The position numbers were made by a program, and so were the translations under genes. The notes under the pieces were generated by a model. It searched no databases. It worked only from the letters and a program-made list of their open reading frames with translations, and was not told the origin of the DNA. Positions 23,440 to 38,752 of a stretch of 39,077 nt of DNA are shown here, piece by piece. The stretch is from an uncultured Myxococcales bacterium (lineage in GTDB: Bacteria; Myxococcota_A; Polyangia; Polyangiales; Polyangiaceae), in NCBI GenBank assembly GCA_937902985.1, contig CALFNG010000194.1, positions 1 through 39,077 of the forward strand, in the 5' to 3' direction. Each line of letters begins with the position of its first letter. Within the stretch, counting starts at the first letter, position 1.

Positions 23440-23773
23440 GAGCGGCCGAAGAAGCGTGGGGTGGGAACGCCATTGCCGTGGCAACCCGACCGGGATGCGC
23501 TGGGGAATGCGAGCGCGGGCTTAAAGCATGCGCCAAAGAGACTGTCAAACAGGCCCGTCAACGCGGCTTGACCGGCGTCGGCGCCCAGGTAGAGTGCGCG
23601 CCCCCCCAGGTTTAGCCAGATTTAGCCAGTTTCGACAGAGTCGCCTCGACGAGCCGTGGTCCTCCTTGAAGACGAGGCCACCTGTCCCTTTCGCTTCGTG
23701 GACAGCGCGCTCCGACGGGCACTTCCCACAGTTACGTAGTTACGTACGCGCGCAAGCGAACAGGAGCGCCCTC
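23440..23773. promoter_or_regulatory. Divergent leader region of rplS and rplC with short tandem repeats
   Basis: This 334-bp stretch holds no gene. TTTAGCCAG occurs twice in tandem with a 10-bp period at 23611-23630, and GTTACGTA twice at 23731-23746. A strong AGGAG at 23762-23766 serves the rplC ATG at 23774. The helical-turn spacing of the first repeat would suit a dimeric regulator. I see no convincing -35/-10 pair. Confidence 0.5.
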
Positions 23774-24445
23774 ATGAATCTTCAGCCCGGTATCATCGGC
23801 CGCAAGCTCGGCTCGACTCAGCTCTTCGAGAAAGACGGCACCGTCAGCCGCGTCACCGTCATCGAGGCGGGCCCCGTGGTCGTTCTCGGCAAGCGCACCC
23901 CCGAGAAAGACGGCTACATTGCCCTCATCCTCGGCCTCGGCGAGCGCAAGGAGCGGCACACGACCAAGCCCCTCGCCGGCTACTTCAAGAAGGCCAACAC
24001 GACCCCGAAGCGCGACGTCAAAGAGCTCCGCTGCGACGCCGAGTTCGCCGGCAAGTGGGAGGTCGGCTCGACGCTGAAGCTCGACGAGATCTTCCAGCCC
24101 GGCATGCTGATCGACGCGCGGGGCACCACCCGTGGCCGCGGCTTCACCGGCGTCATGCGCCGCTGGAACTTCGCGGGCGCCGGCTCGGACACGCACGGCA
24201 CCCACGAGTACCGCCGCCACGGCGGGTCGATCGGCACGAACATGACCCCGGGCCGCACGCTGCCGAACGTCAAGATGGGCGGGCAGTACGGCAACGAGAC
24301 CGTCTCGATCCTCAACATGAAGGTCATCCGGGTCGACGCCGAGAAGCACCAGCTCATGGTCGAGGGCGGCGTCCCGGGCGCGCGCAACGGCTTCGTGCTC
24401 GTTCGCCAGGCGGTCAAGACCTCGAAGAGGTCGACGAAACGATAG
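23774..24445 (+). CDS. rplC: 50S ribosomal protein L3
   Basis: 223 residues from ATG 23774, which has AGGAG eight nt upstream. The start NLQPGIIGRKLGSTQLFEKD is typical of L3, and the long central loop that reaches the peptidyl-transferase centre is intact (RGRGFTGVMRRWNFAGAGSD, then HGGSIGTNMTPGRTLPNVKM and GGQYGNETVS). The Gln in GGQ corresponds to the residue methylated by PrmB in E. coli. L3 is an assembly initiator of the large subunit. It is normally second in the S10 operon, between rpsJ and rplD; here it is followed by a structured element and rlmE instead. It may be the only, relocated copy or a second copy. Confidence 0.97.
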   Translation: MNLQPGIIGRKLGSTQLFEKDGTVSRVTVIEAGPVVVLGKRTPEKDGYIALILGLGERKERHTTKPLAGYFKKANTTPKRDVKELRCDAEFAGKWEVGSTLKLDEIFQPGMLIDARGTTRGRGFTGVMRRWNFAGAGSDTHGTHEYRRHGGSIGTNMTPGRTLPNVKMGGQYGNETVSILNMKVIRVDAEKHQLMVEGGVPGARNGFVLVRQAVKTSKRSTKR

Positions 24446-24524: not shown

Positions 24525-24652
24525 GCCAGGGCGCTTTCCTCTAAGTTGAGCGGGTCCGTATCGGCGGGCGCCGCGCGCAGCCGGGCTTCCCGCCCGGCGA
24601 GCACGGCGAGCGCCGAGACGGGCCCGATCAACGACGAGGAAAGTGCCCTGGC
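24525..24652 (+). ncRNA. 128-nt structured element, copy A (5' of rlmE)
   Basis: It folds as one long rod. P1: 24525-24540 with 24637-24652, 16 bp including one G-U. P2: 24548-24557 with 24620-24629, one mismatch and one G-U. P3: 24561-24566 with 24611-24616. P4: 24569-24573 with 24604-24608. P5: 24580-24586 with 24592-24598, capped by TTCCC. The 24541-24626 core is 70/86 identical to copy B at 35205-35290 with no gaps, while the P1 arms share only 3 of 16 bases with B. Internal loops CTAAGT and ACGACG are identical in both copies. The 3' arm of P1 ends two bases before the rlmE ATG and contains AGGA. A structured leader RNA or a folded repeat element are the two readings; strand is assumed from the flanking genes. 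Confidence 0.7.
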
Positions 24653-24654
24653 CC

Positions 24655-25254
24655 ATGGTCTCGCGGAAGAACCCCTACGCCCGGCCCGACCGCTTCACGC
24701 GGGCGGCCAAGGATGCGGGGTTCCCGGCGCGAAGCGTCTTCAAGCTCGAAGAGATCGACCGGCGCGTCCGGCTCCTCCGGGGCGGGATGCGCGTGCTCGA
24801 CCTCGGCGCGTCGCCCGGGAGCTGGGCGATGTACGCGGCGCAGAAGGTCGGGCCGTCGGGGCATGTGCTCGCGGTCGACCTCGAACCGATCGGGACCGCT
24901 CTGCCGCCGCACGCCGTCTTCGTGCAAGGCGACGCGCTGTCGCTCACGAACGACGACCTCGCCCGCTTCGCGCCTTACGACGTGGTGCTCAGCGACATGG
25001 CCCCGCGCACGAGCGGGAACCGCGTGTCCGACCAGGCGCGGAGCTTCGACCTCTTCATGCGCGCCCTGGCGGTGGGCGCGGCGCTCGGCGCACCCGGCAG
25101 CGCGTTCGTGGGCAAGATCTTCATGAGCGGCGACCTCCCGACCGCGCGCGAAGAGCTCCGCCGGCACTACGAGGCCGAGCGCCTCATTCGACCCGAAGGC
25201 ACCCGGTCCGTCAGCACCGAGATCTTCGCGGTCGGAGCGAAGAAGCGCGCATGA
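24655..25254 (+). CDS. rlmE: 23S rRNA (uridine-2'-O)-methyltransferase RlmE / FtsJ family
   Basis: 199 residues from ATG 24655; a GTG at 24643 is the alternative, but it lies within the closing stem of the upstream element. The SAM site is DLGASPGSW and the catalytic tetrad K-D-K-E is complete: Lys30 (SVFKLEEID), Asp114 (SDMAPRTSG), Lys154 (FVGKIF) and Glu189 (SVSTEIF). These match the spacing in E. coli RlmE, which methylates U2552 in the A-loop of 23S rRNA at a late stage of 50S assembly. Its position after rplC makes a ribosome-biogenesis pair. The last four bases (ATGA) overlap the start of the large kinase gene. Confidence 0.93.
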   Translation: MVSRKNPYARPDRFTRAAKDAGFPARSVFKLEEIDRRVRLLRGGMRVLDLGASPGSWAMYAAQKVGPSGHVLAVDLEPIGTALPPHAVFVQGDALSLTNDDLARFAPYDVVLSDMAPRTSGNRVSDQARSFDLFMRALAVGAALGAPGSAFVGKIFMSGDLPTAREELRRHYEAERLIRPEGTRSVSTEIFAVGAKKRA

Positions 25255-31638: not shown

Positions 31639-32463
31639 TTACGGGGGGAGCGTCCAGGAGAACGTGTAGAGACGGCCGGCCGAGTGCAGGTTTTGATAGA
31701 GGTTCAGGCTCGGTTGCGTGTATCCGGCCGAGGTGGGGTCGTCGCTGAAGCCATAGGAATCCGAGAATTTCGCGAGCTGACTGAAGTCGACGTTCACGAA
31801 GAACAGCCGCGGATCGACGCGAAGAAGCAGCCCGCCGGTCGAGCCCACGACCACCGAAGTCGGGATGGGCGAGACGATGCGCTGCCTGCAGATCGGGTCG
31901 GCGCCCGCGGCCGCGCTGCCCGACGCCTGGCGGTTCGCGCCGATGGTGAGCTTGCCTTCGAAGGGCATGACGATGTCGCCAGTGCTCGCAGTCCCGGCGA
32001 TCGTGAGGATCGTCGTCGGCGGGCTCGGAGTCGCCGCTACGTCGACGTCGCCGCCCGTGAGCCACACTTGCCCCACGAGGGCCGGCGGCTCGGTCGTACC
32101 CGAGCCCTGCCCGGGAAACGGCTGCGGCGCGGGCGACAGGAGGTTCACGTCGAGGCCAGCGGTCACCTGCCCGACGTACGTGCCCGGGAGCACGCAGTTC
32201 GTTCCCTGCGAGCCCGACACCGGCATGCTCTGATCGAGGTAGAGCGCGCCGACGTGAAGCGTCGCGGTGCTCAGCACGACAGTCCAGCCGCGGTCGGTCG
32301 TGAACCGCAAGGGCTCGCCGGCGATCGCGTCGGCGGGCCCGGCCGCGGCCGCCGGAAACGTCACGAGCTGACCGCCCGTCGTGCCCACGCACGCCGCGCA
32401 AGCGCAAGCGATCAGGCTCGCGAGCGCGGCGGCTCGCCGCGCGAGAGGAGCGGCCAGGCCCAT
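31639..32463 (-). CDS. Lipoprotein, second gene of the TonB-receptor operon
   Basis: 274 residues from ATG 32463, which shares a base with the receptor stop (TGATG), so it is translationally coupled. The signal peptide ends in CAACVG. The mature protein begins with a strand pair around PLRFTTDRGWTVVLSTATLHVGALYLDQ and continues as a beta-rich domain (LVGQVWLTGGDVDV, MPFEGKLTIGANRQ, GGLLLRVDPRLFFVNVDF). The C-terminal segment (SAGYTQPSLNLYQNLHSAGR) reads as a regular strand. The coupling to a TonB-dependent receptor implies that it handles the same ligand. Function is otherwise unknown. Confidence 0.75.
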   Translation of the reverse strand: MGLAAPLARRAAALASLIACACAACVGTTGGQLVTFPAAAAGPADAIAGEPLRFTTDRGWTVVLSTATLHVGALYLDQSMPVSGSQGTNCVLPGTYVGQVTAGLDVNLLSPAPQPFPGQGSGTTEPPALVGQVWLTGGDVDVAATPSPPTTILTIAGTASTGDIVMPFEGKLTIGANRQASGSAAAGADPICRQRIVSPIPTSVVVGSTGGLLLRVDPRLFFVNVDFSQLAKFSDSYGFSDDPTSAGYTQPSLNLYQNLHSAGRLYTFSWTLPP

Positions 32464-35009
32464 CACGCGCCTCCGAAGGTGACCGCGAACGTGACGTAGA
32501 CGCCCCGCGGAGCGCCCGCCGAGAACATCCGCTCCGGCACGAGCGTCGGCTGCGACTGGCTGTGAAAGTCGGACGGGTAGTTGTACTCGCCGAGCCGGTA
32601 CTTCGCGTCGAGCAGGTTCGTCGACGTGATCCCGATCTGGTAGCGCGCCCAGGCCAGCGTCGCGGATGCGTCGACGGTGAAGAGTGCGTCGCTGTCCTGG
32701 CCGAACGGAAGCGGCCGCGGCCCGACGTAGGTGACGCCGCAGCTCAGCGTGCCTCGCACCGGCGAACCGGCGAGCCGGAGCGGGAGCTCGTGAAAGAAGC
32801 TCGTGTCCGAGCGGAGCACGTCGCCCGGGATGTACGCGACGAGGCGATGGGTATCGTCGTAGGTCGCGCGGACCAGCGTGAGGTTCGCCGACTCGTCGAA
32901 GAACGGCCCCGTGAGGCGTAGCGCGCCCACCCAGCCCGTCCGGTGCGTGCCGACGCCGAGCACGTTGCGCCCCACCGTCTCGTCGAAGACGAGATCTTTG
33001 TCGACGAGCGTCTCGAAGAAGATCGAGCGCACGACGACCGAGACGTCGTCGACCGACCCGGCGTACGAGACCCCCGCGTCGTGGGCGGCGATGCTGGCGA
33101 AGGGCGTCTTGACGTCCTGCGTGACGTAGCTCGGGTCGATCGAGCGAACGCCCTTGCCGACGCTGGCCGAGATCACGAGGTGCGCGATCGGGCCCAGGAG
33201 CAGCGACGCCCGCGGCAACACCGCGGCGCTCGACGTCGACGTCTGCTGGTTCGGCTCGCGCGGGCGACCGAAGTCTTGCTGCGAGAGGCAGCTCTGGTCG
33301 ATGGGCGGGTTCGTGGTCGACGGGTGCGCGACGGTCTGGGCCGCGCAGTCGTTCAAGACGTCGTACGTGAGGAGATCGGCCCGCACTCCGCCGCGAACGT
33401 TCACCCACGCCAGCGGCCGCAGGTTCGCGTCGGCATAGAGGCCGATGTCGCCGAGCTTGGAGTCGAGGTCCGTGTCCGTCGCGTAGGGAACGCCGGTGCT
33501 CGCTTCGAGGCGTTGCTGGGTGCCGGCGACGTCGTCGCCGCGCGCGTAGTAGCCGAACTCGAGCTCCTGGCGTTGCCCGAACGCCGTCGCGTGGAGGCGC
33601 GCTGCGCCGCGCGCGCCCACGGTGACCTCGTGCACGTCGAGGTCGATCATGTCGCCTCGCTGCGCGTGGAGGCTCTGGAGCGGCTGCTGCACGTCGAGCA
33701 AGAAGCCCGTGAAGTTCTCGAGCAGACGCATGTCGCGCTTGATGACGAAGACCTGCTGGGTCAGCGTCGTGTTTCCCGACGTCGATTCGACGTCGGCCGC
33801 CACCGAGAACCGCGACGCATCTCCGCCCTCGGGCACGGCCTCGTGCGCGAACGACGAGACGTCGTAGCTGCCGTAGAAGCCGATCTTGCCCGCCTGGTAG
33901 TCGTCTTGCCGGACGAGCCCCGCGGAGTGGTAGTGCGTCGAATACGCCTGCGCCGTCAGCCGGTACGAGCCGCGCGCGCCGAGCTCCCCCTCGTACTGCC
34001 CCATCGCCGTCGCGCGCTGCGCGTCACGGTTCTGCCCGAACCCGGCGGTCGAGTAGAGCTCGACGCCCCCGAGGGTGTGGGCGCTCCCGCCCGGCGGCCC
34101 CCAGAGGAGGAGCGCCCGCTGCGTACCGAAGCTGCCGCCGGTGTACCTGGCGGTGAGCCCCCGCTGCGCGAGGCCGAGCTGGTAGTCGGCGCTGCCGGCC
34201 ACGGCATAGTTGCCCTGGCGAGGATCGAACGGGCCTTCGACGACGCGAAGGCGCTCGACGAGCTCGGGGATGATGAAGTGCGCGTCGGCGTAGCCGTTGC
34301 CATGCAGGTTCCCGCTCTCGTTGATGGGCACGCCGCCCACCGTGAACTCGATGTCCTGCCCCTCGCGGGCGTCGAAGCCACGGAGGAAGACCTGCTCCGC
34401 GTGCCCCTCGCCTCCCTCGTTGCTCAGCATGATGCCGGGGGCGAGCTTCAGCAGCTCGCTGGCGTTCTGGCGCGGCACGTTCGCCAGCGCGCCCACGACG
34501 AGGTTGAAGTCCGAAGCGCCAACGTTCGGTGGCGCGGCGCGACCGCGTACGTTCACTTCTTCGGGCACGGGCACGGGCACGGGCACGGGCACGGGCACAG
34601 ACGCAGGCGCGGGCGCAGGCGCGACCGCGGGCGCAGGCGCAGGCGCGACCACGACTGTGAGCCGCCCAAAGTGAAATGGGATCGTGATGCGGCTGGCGAC
34701 GGGTGTTCCGTCGCGGGTCGCAGGCACGAAGGTCCACCGGCGCGCGGCCGCAGCCGCCGCCTCGTCGAGATCCGCGCCCCCCGAGTCGGCGACCGCCGTG
34801 TCCGAGACATGCCCATCCGCACCGACGGTGACGATGAGAACGACATCGGCCTGCGCGCGGTCGCCGAGGGCCGAGGCTGCGAACACCGCGTCGGCGCGCT
34901 CGACGACGACTGGCGGTGTGACCCGCGGCGAGGGCTGCGCGAGCGCCGTCGCCGTCGCGGCGAAGAGGGACGCCACGAGCCCGAAGGTGAAGGCGAGCCG
35001 GCATTGCAT
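32463..35009 (-). CDS. TonB-dependent receptor with N-terminal TonB C-terminal domain (paralog 1)
   Basis: 848 residues from ATG 35009; an in-frame extension to 35060 overlaps a good promoter, so it is not used. Order: signal peptide (ends ATALAQ); a TonB C-terminal-type domain at about 30-115 (ADVVLIVTVGADGHVSDTAV, then ARRWTFVPATRDGTPV and ITIPFHF); an Ala-Pro / Val-Pro linker at about 120-155; a plug domain at about 158-270 with LKLAPGIMLSNEGGEGHAEQ and FTVGGVPIN; then a 22-strand-type barrel ending in the aromatic-rich strand GVYVTFAVTFGGA. Such receptors import bound ligand across the outer membrane using TonB energy. Having a TonB-like domain in front of the plug is unusual. It heads a three-gene operon with two lipoproteins. 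Ligand unknown. Confidence 0.88.
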   Translation of the reverse strand: MQCRLAFTFGLVASLFAATATALAQPSPRVTPPVVVERADAVFAASALGDRAQADVVLIVTVGADGHVSDTAVADSGGADLDEAAAAAARRWTFVPATRDGTPVASRITIPFHFGRLTVVVAPAPAPAVAPAPAPASVPVPVPVPVPVPEEVNVRGRAAPPNVGASDFNLVVGALANVPRQNASELLKLAPGIMLSNEGGEGHAEQVFLRGFDAREGQDIEFTVGGVPINESGNLHGNGYADAHFIIPELVERLRVVEGPFDPRQGNYAVAGSADYQLGLAQRGLTARYTGGSFGTQRALLLWGPPGGSAHTLGGVELYSTAGFGQNRDAQRATAMGQYEGELGARGSYRLTAQAYSTHYHSAGLVRQDDYQAGKIGFYGSYDVSSFAHEAVPEGGDASRFSVAADVESTSGNTTLTQQVFVIKRDMRLLENFTGFLLDVQQPLQSLHAQRGDMIDLDVHEVTVGARGAARLHATAFGQRQELEFGYYARGDDVAGTQQRLEASTGVPYATDTDLDSKLGDIGLYADANLRPLAWVNVRGGVRADLLTYDVLNDCAAQTVAHPSTTNPPIDQSCLSQQDFGRPREPNQQTSTSSAAVLPRASLLLGPIAHLVISASVGKGVRSIDPSYVTQDVKTPFASIAAHDAGVSYAGSVDDVSVVVRSIFFETLVDKDLVFDETVGRNVLGVGTHRTGWVGALRLTGPFFDESANLTLVRATYDDTHRLVAYIPGDVLRSDTSFFHELPLRLAGSPVRGTLSCGVTYVGPRPLPFGQDSDALFTVDASATLAWARYQIGITSTNLLDAKYRLGEYNYPSDFHSQSQPTLVPERMFSAGAPRGVYVTFAVTFGGA
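34563..34598 (-). repeat. GGGCAC hexanucleotide x6 in the receptor linker
   Basis: Six perfect 6-bp units encode alternating Val-Pro in the linker between the TonB-like domain and the plug. The unit length keeps the reading frame, so copy-number changes would lengthen or shorten the linker by two residues at a time. Confidence 0.9.
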
Positions 35010-35020
35010 CGCCGGCGTTA

Positions 35021-35048
35021 AGTATAACGACGTAACAACCAATGCAAA
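35021..35048 (-). promoter_or_regulatory. Sigma-70-type promoter of the TonB-receptor operon
   Basis: On the minus strand TTTGCA (35048-35043) and TATACT (35026-35021) are separated by 16 bp, 4/6 and 5/6 matches to the consensus hexamers. The stretch is clearly AT-richer than its surroundings. Transcription would start only a few bases before the ATG at 35009, so the message would be leaderless or nearly so; no ribosome site is visible. Confidence 0.5.
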
Positions 35049-35188
35049 CGGATCGCACATCGCTGCGGATTATTTAGGTTCCGGATGCCAAATACGTCTT
35101 ACGACGTTCGCACGTTCCCCGCTGCGGACGTGGACGCCGCGTCCACGTCCAATTCCACGCTCGGTCCGCCAATCGAACGGCAGCGGGC

Positions 35189-35316
35189 CCAGAGCGAGCG
35201 GCGGCTAAGTCGAACGGGGCCGGCTCGGCGGTCGCCGCGCGGAAACGCACTTCCTGTGCGTTGAGCACGGCGAGCGCCGAGACGGGCCCGTTCCACGACG
35301 CCGCCGCCCGCTCTGG
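35189..35316. ncRNA. 128-nt structured element, copy B (between the two receptors)
   Basis: Same length and fold as copy A, at a constant offset of 10664. P1: 35189-35204 with 35301-35316, 15 of 16 pairs. P2: 35212-35221 with 35284-35293. P3: 35225-35230 with 35275-35280. P4: 35233-35237 with 35268-35272. P5: 35244-35250 with 35256-35262, loop TTCCT. Four P5 pairs differ from A by compensatory change on both sides (G-C to A-T, C-G to A-T, G-C to C-G, G-C to A-T). The element ends exactly where the stop codon of the second receptor begins (35317), so on the transcribed minus strand it is the start of that gene's 3' untranslated region. Confidence 0.7.
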
Positions 35317-37833
35317 TCAGAGCGTGGCGGAAAGCGAGAGGAAGAGCATGCGCGGGGCCCCCGCCGTGAAGGACCGCTCCGGAGTGAGCGTGGGCGGCGC
35401 CTGCGGATTGAAGTCGGAGACGAAAGTGAACTCGCTCAGTCGGTACTTCGTGTCGAACAGGTTCGTGCCGGTGAGACCGAGCTCGAACGCGCGCCAGGTG
35501 AGCTTCAGCGCCGCGTCGACGAGCACGTAGGGCACGCTCGATTCGCCGAGCGGAAGCGAGCGCGCGCCCACGTAGGTGACCGACGGGCCGATCGACGCCC
35601 GGATGGTATGGCGAGCGAGCCGCCACGGCAGATCGCCGAAGAACGCCGTATCGGAGCGCGCGAGGACGTGCGGCACGTACGGAATGCCTTCGTGGCTGGC
35701 GTCGAGGATGCCCCGGACGACGGCCACGTTCGCCGCTTCATCGAAGAACCGACCCGTGAGGCGACCGGCACCGACCCAGCCGGTGCGCTCCGTCGCGCCC
35801 GTCTCGACGGTGCGGCCCAGAACGGGGTCGACGACCTCGTCGCGGTCGATCTCCGTGTCGTAGAAGACCGAGCGCAAGGTCAGCTGGCCGGCGCCGGTGG
35901 CGCGAGCGTAGGACACGCCCCCTTCGTACGACGAGATCGTCGCCAGCGGCGTGGTGGGGTTCGCGGCGACCTCGTCGATCGCGAGGGAGCGGACCCCGCG
36001 ACCGTAGCTGCCGACCAGCGTGACGCCGTCGAAGGCGCCCAGGAGGAGCGATACGCGCGGGAGCATCTCGCTGGCGGCGGCGCTCGTGCGAGGGTTGGCG
36101 CCGGGCTTCGCGTCGTCGGTGCAGCCGGGCGCGGCGGCGGCGCAGCCGTTCTCGACCGAATACGTGAACAGCTCTTCGCGCACGCCGCCGCGCACGGTGA
36201 CGAACGACACGGGCTTGAGGCTCGCGTCGGCGTAGAGCGCGAGGTCGCCGAGGAACCCGCCGAGGCTGGCGTTGGTCGCGTAGGGAACCTGCGTCGCGCG
36301 ATCGACGAGGTGCTGCACGTTGTCGACGGAGTCGCCGCGCGCGAAATACCCGATCTCGAGCTCCTGGGGCTGGCCGAGCGCCTCGACGTGGGTTCGCGCC
36401 GCTCCGCGCGCGCCGAAGGAGCGCTCGGTCATCGCCAGATCGAGCATCGTGCCCAGGGGTTCTCGGACCCCTTGGTCGTTCACGTAGCCCGTGAAGTCTT
36501 CGCGGATGCGGAGCGACCGGTCGATCGCGAAGAGCTGCTGCGTCAGCGTGGTGTAGCGCGTGGCGCTGCCCGTCCGCGTCTCGAGGTCGGCGGCGAGCGA
36601 GAAGCGCGACGAGTCTTGCCCCTGGTTGGGGTCGTACGTGCCGTAGAACCCGATGCGACCCGCGTCGTAGTCGTCTTCGCGAACGACTCCAGCCGCCTGC
36701 GACACGACGGAATAGGCCTGGCCGGTGACGCGCCAGGTGCCGCGGTCGCCGAGCTTGCCTTCGTATTGCGCGAGCGCCGAGCCTCGCTGGTACGCGCGGT
36801 TCTGGCCGTACCCGTTCGACTCGGCGTACTCGGCCGCGGCGAACGTGTGAGCGCTCTCGCCCTCCGGCCCCCACGCGAGGAGCATCTTCTCGGTGCCGTA
36901 GCTGCCCGCGGTCCACTTCGCGGTGAGCCCGCGGCGGGCGAGCCCGAGCTCGTAGTCGGCGCTCCCGGCGACGGCGAAGTTGCCCTGATGCGGATCGAAG
37001 GGCCCCTCGAGCACCCGGACCGACTGGACGGCCTCGGGCAGAACGAAGTGGGAGTCGGCGTAGCCGTTACCGTGGAAGTTCCCCGGATCGTTGACCGGTA
37101 CGCCGCCGACGGTGATCTCCATCGACTCGCCTTCTCCGGCGTCGAAGCCGCGGAGAGTGATGGAGTCGGCGTGCCCTTCGCCGCCCTCGTTGGTCACCAG
37201 AACGCCGGGCGCGAGCTTCAAGAAGTCAGCGGCGCTCGCGCGCGGGACCACGGCGAGCTCGCCGACCGGGAGCTCGAAGTCGGCGCCGCCCCGGGCCGGC
37301 GCTCGCGCGCGTCCGGTCACGCTCACCTCGCTCACGTCAGCCGGTGCGGCAGTGGACGGCGGCGCGGGCGGGCTCGGGACCGCCTCGTGGACCGGGACTT
37401 CACCCGGGGCGGGCGGCGTCTCGACGAGCTCCGGCGGAAGCGCGGGCGGCGCGAAGTGGAACGGCATCTTGATGCGGCTCGCCACCGGCTTGCCGTCGCG
37501 AAGGGCGGGCACGAACGTCCACTCGCGGGCGGCGACGATCGCGGCCTCGTCGAGGTCGGCACCGCCGGACTCGACGAGATCGACCTTCGAGACGTGGCCG
37601 TCGGCGTCGACCGTCACGGCGAGGACGACGTCGGCGTGTTCGCGCGCGGCCAGGGCCGACGGCGGGTACACGGCGTCGACGTGGTGAATGACGACCGGCG
37701 GAACGACCACGGGGGGAACGACGTCGTGACGTGCGTTCGCGACCTGACCCATCACCGGGTTCGCGACGCCGAGGCCGGTAGCCGCGGCTCCGAGCGCGGT
37801 CATGAGGGCGAGGCGGCGGCTGGTCTCCCTCAT
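35317..37833 (-). CDS. TonB-dependent receptor with N-terminal TonB C-terminal domain (paralog 2)
   Basis: 838 residues from ATG 37833. Same design as the neighbouring paralog: signal peptide (ending VMGQ), TonB C-terminal-type domain at about 45-130 (VDAVYPPSALAAREHADVVL, SGGADLDEAAIVAAREWTFV, IKMPFHFAPP), a Pro-rich linker at about 133-168 that here has no hexanucleotide repeat, plug with LKLAPGVLVTNEGGEGHADS and ITVGGVPVN, and a barrel ending MLFLSLSATL. The plug and barrel are clearly homologous along their length (for example VEGPFDPRQGNYAVAGSADY against LEGPFDPHQGNFAVAGSADY), so a local duplication is likely. No partner lipoprotein is attached to this copy. The 3' end abuts structured element B. 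Confidence 0.88.
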   Translation of the reverse strand: MRETSRRLALMTALGAAATGLGVANPVMGQVANARHDVVPPVVVPPVVIHHVDAVYPPSALAAREHADVVLAVTVDADGHVSKVDLVESGGADLDEAAIVAAREWTFVPALRDGKPVASRIKMPFHFAPPALPPELVETPPAPGEVPVHEAVPSPPAPPSTAAPADVSEVSVTGRARAPARGGADFELPVGELAVVPRASAADFLKLAPGVLVTNEGGEGHADSITLRGFDAGEGESMEITVGGVPVNDPGNFHGNGYADSHFVLPEAVQSVRVLEGPFDPHQGNFAVAGSADYELGLARRGLTAKWTAGSYGTEKMLLAWGPEGESAHTFAAAEYAESNGYGQNRAYQRGSALAQYEGKLGDRGTWRVTGQAYSVVSQAAGVVREDDYDAGRIGFYGTYDPNQGQDSSRFSLAADLETRTGSATRYTTLTQQLFAIDRSLRIREDFTGYVNDQGVREPLGTMLDLAMTERSFGARGAARTHVEALGQPQELEIGYFARGDSVDNVQHLVDRATQVPYATNASLGGFLGDLALYADASLKPVSFVTVRGGVREELFTYSVENGCAAAAPGCTDDAKPGANPRTSAAASEMLPRVSLLLGAFDGVTLVGSYGRGVRSLAIDEVAANPTTPLATISSYEGGVSYARATGAGQLTLRSVFYDTEIDRDEVVDPVLGRTVETGATERTGWVGAGRLTGRFFDEAANVAVVRGILDASHEGIPYVPHVLARSDTAFFGDLPWRLARHTIRASIGPSVTYVGARSLPLGESSVPYVLVDAALKLTWRAFELGLTGTNLFDTKYRLSEFTFVSDFNPQAPPTLTPERSFTAGAPRMLFLSLSATL

Positions 37834-37882
37834 GCGCGGGCGGACGTTACAGCGACTGAGCGCGCGTGTCAGTCGGGCGCGC

Positions 37883-38752
37883 TCATTCGGCGCGCGCAAG
37901 CTCCCTCAGCGTGCTCGAAGAGACCCACGCGTCGGTCGCCCCGAAGCGAACCCGCGTCGCCCCTCCGCGCAGCTCGACGATCTCGACCCTCGCTCCTTCG
38001 GGGAGGGGCGTCGCGCCCGGGAGCGCGATGCCTCGCGCGTCGTTCGGTCTCGCACTGGTGGCCACGACCACGGCCTCGCGCAGGGTCAACCGGTCGTGGC
38101 GCGCGGCGAGGGTCATCCCGACGGCGACCGCGAGCGCGGGGGCGGCGACCGACGCGACCACCCCGCCCGCGATGCGGACGCGAGGGCGACCGCCCAGCCA
38201 TCGGGCGAAGAGCCCCGCGGCCAGGGCCATGGAGAACCCGATGGCGAGCGCCGACCAGACCGACTCCGGAAGCAGCCCCGCGAGCGTGCGCGCCAGCGTG
38301 CGGCCCGGATCGACCTCGACGGGATCGCCCGCGCTGAGACGCCGCCGCGCAATCTCGCCCCGGACGATGCCGAGCGCGCTCGACGCGTCGTCCGTCAGCT
38401 TGGGATCGGTGGAGAGATCGCGCGCTTCTTCGAACCCGTGCGCCGCGCGGCCGAGATCGCCCGGCACCTCGGCTCCGATGCGGACGCGCATCGCGTACGC
38501 CAGGCCGCGGTCGTAGCTGGCGGCGGCGTCGACGACGCCCTCGTCGGCGAGCGTCTCGAACGACGCGACGGCGTCCCCGGCGCGCCCCTCGCGAAGCGCC
38601 CGGATGGCGCCGTCGAAGAGGGCGCTCGTACCGCTTGCATCGCCGGGGTCATGGTCGGCGTCGGCCCGCGCGACGCCCGCGGGCAGCACGAGCCCCGCAA
38701 AGGCCAGCATGACCCCGAGGGCCCACGGGACGACGAACGCCGCGCGGCTCAT
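37883..38752 (-). CDS. BatE-like TPR / SH3 membrane protein
   Basis: 289 residues from ATG 38752, which overlaps the stop of the preceding gene (ATGA). Order: signal peptide (ALGVMLAFAGLVLPAGVARADA), a TPR-like helical region at about 45-140 (SALFDGAIRALREGRAGDAV, SYDRGLAYAMRVRIG), a TM pair at about 168-188 and 197-225 (WSALAIGFSMALAAGLFARW; RIAGGVVASVAAPALAVAVG), and a small C-terminal SH3-like beta domain (TPLPEGARVEIVELRGGATRVRFGATDAWVSSSTL). This TPR-TM-SH3 arrangement is that of BatE-type proteins of the Bacteroides aerotolerance operon. The assignment rests on architecture and on the neighbour. The function of Bat proteins is poorly known. Confidence 0.65.
   Translation of the reverse strand: MSRAAFVVPWALGVMLAFAGLVLPAGVARADADHDPGDASGTSALFDGAIRALREGRAGDAVASFETLADEGVVDAAASYDRGLAYAMRVRIGAEVPGDLGRAAHGFEEARDLSTDPKLTDDASSALGIVRGEIARRRLSAGDPVEVDPGRTLARTLAGLLPESVWSALAIGFSMALAAGLFARWLGGRPRVRIAGGVVASVAAPALAVAVGMTLAARHDRLTLREAVVVATSARPNDARGIALPGATPLPEGARVEIVELRGGATRVRFGATDAWVSSSTLRELARAE

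Follow-up and report, generated by a model that had tools for sequence, protein, structure and literature searches.

Is the long palindrome directly in front of rlmE in this genome a structured RNA that works where it lies, or one copy of a repeat that has spread? The window analyzed here is a 39,077-nt stretch of DNA from an uncultured Myxococcales bacterium. It holds two copies of the palindrome, which the earlier note, made from these letters alone, had called a candidate new structured RNA or folded repeat family. The features concerned are these, R1 being a covariance model made from 35 copies of the source genome:

24525..24652, + strand (the strand with the conserved fold), copy 1 of the hairpin element (R1, 134.8 bits)
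24525..24541, + strand, 5′ arm of the 17-bp outer stem of copy 1, from the fold (column pairs 3-19/138-154)
24636..24652, + strand, 3′ arm of that stem, ending 2 nt before the rlmE ATG (24655)
24541..24636, + strand, conserved core of copy 1, with internal loops CTAAGT/ACGACG, a C.A mismatch and an apical GGA/GA loop
35189..35316, + strand, copy 2, with its 3′ end directly against the stop codon of a convergent TonB-receptor gene
23528..24445, + strand, upstream gene with a ribosomal protein L3 domain (PF00297), whose TAG stop lies 77-79 nt before copy 1
24655..25254, + strand, rlmE/ftsJ (PF01728), whose ATG comes directly after copy 1
35317..37899, − strand, TonB_C/TonB-dependent receptor gene, its TGA stop adjoining copy 2

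The two copies do match over 128 nt without a gap (84/128 identical), and comparison of 24541-24626 with 35205-35290 gives exactly the 70/86 identities and 16 differences reported before; likewise, the first description was correct about the 17-bp outer stem and about the loops CTAAGT/ACGACG and GAGCA. Compensated pairs are present in the apical stem, to which the earlier note had assigned them, but they are not limited to it, and most lie in the outer stem, outside the core that it had compared. Of the 51 pairs in the copy 1 fold, 16 differ at both positions in copy 2 yet still pair there, 4 are lost, and none differs at a single position only. Both copies fold as single 128-nt rods (−107.1 and −104.7 kcal/mol, z ~ −11 versus dinucleotide shuffles), and in many other copies of the same genome the core 24541..24636 is the sole matching part. 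About 12 nt ahead of the rlmE ATG, the 3′ arm of copy 1 (window 24636-24655) includes GAGGAAAG; if this is a ribosome-binding site, as it may be, pairing in the stem would hide it. Near copy 2, the receptor gene is one of two adjacent TonB_C/plug-domain receptor genes, at 32463-35060 (−) and 35317-37899 (−), a tandem pair of similar layout.

A blastn search of the source genome with copy 1 gives 40 matches, and R1 finds, in its 8.3 Mb, at least ~45 copies of full length plus several partial ones, some of which are truncated at contig ends; the total is about 50, and here as elsewhere genome copy counts from model searches are lower bounds. In the R1 alignment 97.7% of cells are paired and 31 of the 50 pairs show double changes. 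Double-change cells number 220 against a mean of 64 in shuffles, and the covariation signal is lost when pair partners are shifted by one column. The tree of copies is star-like, and internal versus terminal branch changes were counted on that star-like tree. Two copies of the source genome, L021 and L044, have a longer apical stem with ~10 extra nt (CTCGGTCACGTT / CTCGGTTACGTT). Rfam has no matching family, in agreement with the initial impression that no named RNA class applies: nothing reaches gathering score in the window, related loci give only their neighboring tRNAs, and permissive E-values bring up nothing but weak look-alikes, most of them miRNA hairpins that are alike in shape.

The covariance-model check that the earlier note had proposed, in the source genome and its relatives, finds many further copies with covarying stems. 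Outside the source genome, R1 gives at least 54 matches in a Sorangium genome (G021) and diverged matches in G003, G007, G010 and G012, with no match in the congeners G001 and G002. By contig scan, carriers of the Sorangium type include S. cellulosum So ce26, So ceGT47, So0157-2, So0008-312 and MAGs. A second, inner-80-nt model, R2, was made only from copies of G001, G003, G007, G010 and G012, leaving out those of the source genome and Sorangium, and it nevertheless recovers at least 39 copies in the source genome and at least 21 in G021, together with at least 18-34 copies in each of G001, G003, G006, G010 and G014. R2 matches occur in 17 of 38 relatives and, in a sample of the phylum, in 24 of 189 genomes, where the matches extend weakly to other classes. 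Those distant matches that were inspected likewise form long rods and resemble the others at the apex, and the same modules recur: the apical GGA/GA internal loop, the C.A mismatch and a CUAGG (or CUAAG)/CCGACG loop. Each genome has a subfamily of its own, amplified there with its own outer stem. From these comparisons we take the source element to be a member of a superfamily spread across the phylum Myxococcota.

Which strand folds can be read from wobble pairs, because G.U becomes an A.C mismatch when the opposite strand is considered. Counted on the + strand, G.U and A.C stand at 122:8 in the source genome and 113:16 in Sorangium, and at 22:2, 51:1, 15:3 and 18:1 in other genomes or genera. 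This excess in six genomes or genera indicates that the + strand fold was selected, and the selected molecule would be RNA or single-stranded DNA. Rare variants (found in two copies or fewer) show almost no bias (11:8 in the source genome, 16:13 in Sorangium), and one copy of the orthologous pair L137/L170 has lost its outer 5′ arm, so constraint at individual loci seems weak; we read this as selection that acted in the spreading lineages, with little constraint afterwards. The singletons of G003 do keep a G.U bias (7:1). The original description is right as to a repeat family and only partly right as to a structured RNA, since what the strand bias shows is the folded strand, not a function at each locus.

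As a rule the copies lie almost exactly where a gene ends. With gene calls from a purpose-made codon-usage gene finder, which are approximate, the element's 3′ end meets the stop codon of the facing gene in 33 of 40 copies of the source genome (mostly TAG) and in 78 of 95 Sorangium copies (47 TAG, 30 TGA, 1 TAA), whereas only about 3% of random intergenic positions would be expected to fall as near to a stop. Copies in G003 and G016 abut mainly TGA. Ends of tRNA genes are also used: two G010 copies adjoin the 3′ ends of tRNA-Asn and tRNA-Arg, and in G232 (L349) three different tRNA-Ser genes each have a copy directly behind them, and the outer stems of these copies are nearly the same. On the other side of many Sorangium copies is a C-rich leader of ~33 nt, which sometimes begins at the stop of the upstream gene. 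Placement before rlmE, to which the earlier note had drawn attention, is correct for copy 1, two bases before the ATG and behind the L3-like gene, but it is an exception in the family and not the rule. The same L3-rlmE gene pair in G002 has a spacer without the element, and in G001 a member of a different subfamily lies directly behind the L3-like gene.

Could the element then be a functional 3′-end RNA? Its hairpin would end + transcripts after a C-rich (Rho-type) leader and so shield the facing gene from antisense transcription, or would protect mRNA 3′ ends from exonuclease; such effects have been proposed for REPs (PMC3733652). The exact stop-codon placement, in most cases in a convergent gap (59 of 95 Sorangium copies), the C-rich leaders upstream and the selected + strand fold are all in its favor. 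We nonetheless consider this explanation unlikely, given the patchy presence at orthologous sites, the lack of a clear G.U bias among rare variants of the source genome and Sorangium, the loss of an outer arm in an orthologous copy, the lack of a T run after the hairpin, and the location of copy 1 before a start codon.

A further question is whether these are classical TA-target MITEs in the manner of ERIC and RUP, belonging to an IS630- or IS5-type transposon, with a CTAG/GTAC target, TA duplication and terminal repeats TAGAGC/GCTCTA. The palindromes of the source genome do stop sharply one base beyond TA (33/40, with the next base at null), mostly as CTAG/GTAC, and three hairpin-only Sorangium copies have the TAG of both convergent genes at their two ends. 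However, TA is found at both flanks in 24 of 40 copies of the source genome and in only 5 of 95 Sorangium copies, a pattern that gives no clean target-site duplication, and G003 and G016 use TGA. Non-coding TA sites, moreover, lie mostly away from stops (168 vs 27; 988 vs 112), so a target combined with selection does not explain the placement; a scheme of TA/CTAG targeting plus purifying selection was rejected because it gives no stop-codon precision. In five genomes, the IS630-type (PF13358) loci have ends unlike those of the element. A TA-target origin thus seems improbable to us. A SINE-like retroposon, whose + RNA would be reverse transcribed at gene 3′ ends by a reverse transcriptase acting in trans, could account for the RNA-like wobble bias, the truncated tandem arms and the placement at mature RNA ends, including those of tRNAs, but it is very improbable given that the carriers G006, G010 (83% complete) and G014 have no RVT_1 match.

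Comparison of orthologous gene ends among Sorangium genomes points to movement. Such ends are found with and without the element, and the native stop either falls on the same codon or comes two to three codons later. One convergent gap (L106/L124) is occupied in both GT47 and So ce26, but the two elements point in opposite directions, and each of these copies meets the stop codon that it faces. These are comparisons between species, not strains, and insertion as opposed to loss is inferred from them. A Y1 transposase domain (PF01797) is absent from G000, G001, G003, G006, G007, G010, G012, G014 and G021, with two matches in G016, and a RAYT/Y1 enzyme was set aside because most carriers tested lack it. 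RVT_1 was likewise rejected, being present in some carriers and some non-carriers and missing from the three carriers named above. The R″/R′ core boxes of attC sites were found at the ends of 0 of 135 copies.

Taken together, dispersed copies, genome-specific subfamilies, element-free orthologous sites, a compensated fold selected on the + strand and 3′ ends that lie at gene ends argue that the element belongs to a new Myxococcota superfamily of mobile palindromes that are small, non-coding and non-autonomous and that resemble REP, ERIC and IRU elements, and we put the probability of this reading at roughly 0.62. Counting against it are the G.U bias of the G003 singletons, the inconsistent TA flanks and the failure to find a mobilizing enzyme among those searched for (Y1, RVT_1, IS630-type). 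The earlier note had held that a REP/MITE-type repeat or a known Rfam family would speak against its proposal; high copy number, patchy presence, element-free orthologous sites and gene-end location make the former largely the case, and the latter is not. Such mobile palindromes would spread through a folded single-stranded + strand intermediate (single-stranded DNA as in REPs, or RNA), recognized by a trans-acting enzyme other than a Y1/RAYT transposase, and would insert or be retained where the element's end supplies or follows a stop codon. As REP and ERIC are known to do, the element may also have a slight secondary influence on mRNA 3′ ends, and internal-loop modules conserved across the phylum, which exceed what a simple hairpin would need, leave room for an RNA function. 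More tentatively, the elements may form a phylum-wide class, sharing a conserved multi-loop architecture, that moves in the form of a folded single strand and that a non-Y1, non-RVT_1 enzyme inserts specifically where genes end; if so, this would be a new mode of targeting tied to gene or transcript ends (in-frame stops, tRNA 3′ termini).

For gamma- and alphaproteobacteria there are good descriptions of small palindromic repeats. Integron attC sites are long structure-conserved palindromes that come immediately after a stop codon and fold on the antisense strand. The myxobacterial element resembles attC in being a long structure-conserved palindrome directly at a stop codon, but its copies are dispersed and not in cassette arrays, and its apex is conserved, not its base. 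REPs are high-copy extragenic palindromes that mostly lie close to ORF 3′ ends, between genes in convergent or codirectional arrangement; their termini often supply TAG stops, and their stems have been noted to contain GT pairs (PMC3733652). The myxobacterial element shares the high copy number, location near gene 3′ ends, TAG stops and G.U pairs with REPs and REPINs, but its rods are 100-130 nt long with several conserved internal loops (REPs are 20-40 bp), its end bases vary and are paired instead of forming a constant unpaired GTAG/CGTC tag, and most carriers tested lack a Y1 transposase. ERIC is an intergenic imperfect palindrome of about 127 bp with a stable fold and often TA ends (PMC2229807). 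Like ERIC, IRU/RU-1 and other MITEs (RUP, NEMIS), our element is small and non-coding and its ends form a stable stem-loop; it differs in its inconsistent TA ends, abutted stop codons, conserved apical domain and host phylum, in an outer stem that varies between and within genomes by paired changes, and in that no autonomous transposon with the same ends was seen among the IS630-type loci of five genomes. We therefore file it among the mobile extragenic palindromes as a new variant, set apart from REP and ERIC by its size, internal-loop modules, lack of RAYT and host range. Our literature search on Sorangium and myxobacterial repeats, which covered few subscription papers, found no earlier description. 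The complete Sorangium genomes, with dozens of copies each, make a clean system in which to ask how short palindromes reach exact stop codons, which enzyme moves them, and how far covariation in repeats reflects palindrome correction instead of a role as RNA.

After insertion, the arms of such mobile palindromes would be kept matched mainly by palindrome correction and not by a job at each locus. In L024, L035 and L038 the conserved loop ACGACG is replaced by the perfect complement of the opposite side, and L113 carries a mirror copy of the facing gene's TGA at its far end, although no gene there requires it. L084 and L085 have a duplicated arm or half-hairpin, and L117 has three tandem 105-bp units. 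The erased loops and the scant bias among rare variants are more readily explained by selection that acted during spread, together with DNA palindrome correction, than by an RNA at work everywhere. The covariation that the earlier note took as the hallmark of selected structure is indeed massive, but given such arm-copying events (template switching at hairpins) covariation in a repeat is not by itself proof of RNA function or of selection for RNA here; this is a caution for covariation-based RNA discovery, where the “covariation” of repeats can stem from palindrome correction. Tandem or half-element duplications that keep one arm plus the apex are seen at L117:2565-2903, L165:5921-6119 and L085:2900-3139, and their form suggests hairpin-driven template switching.
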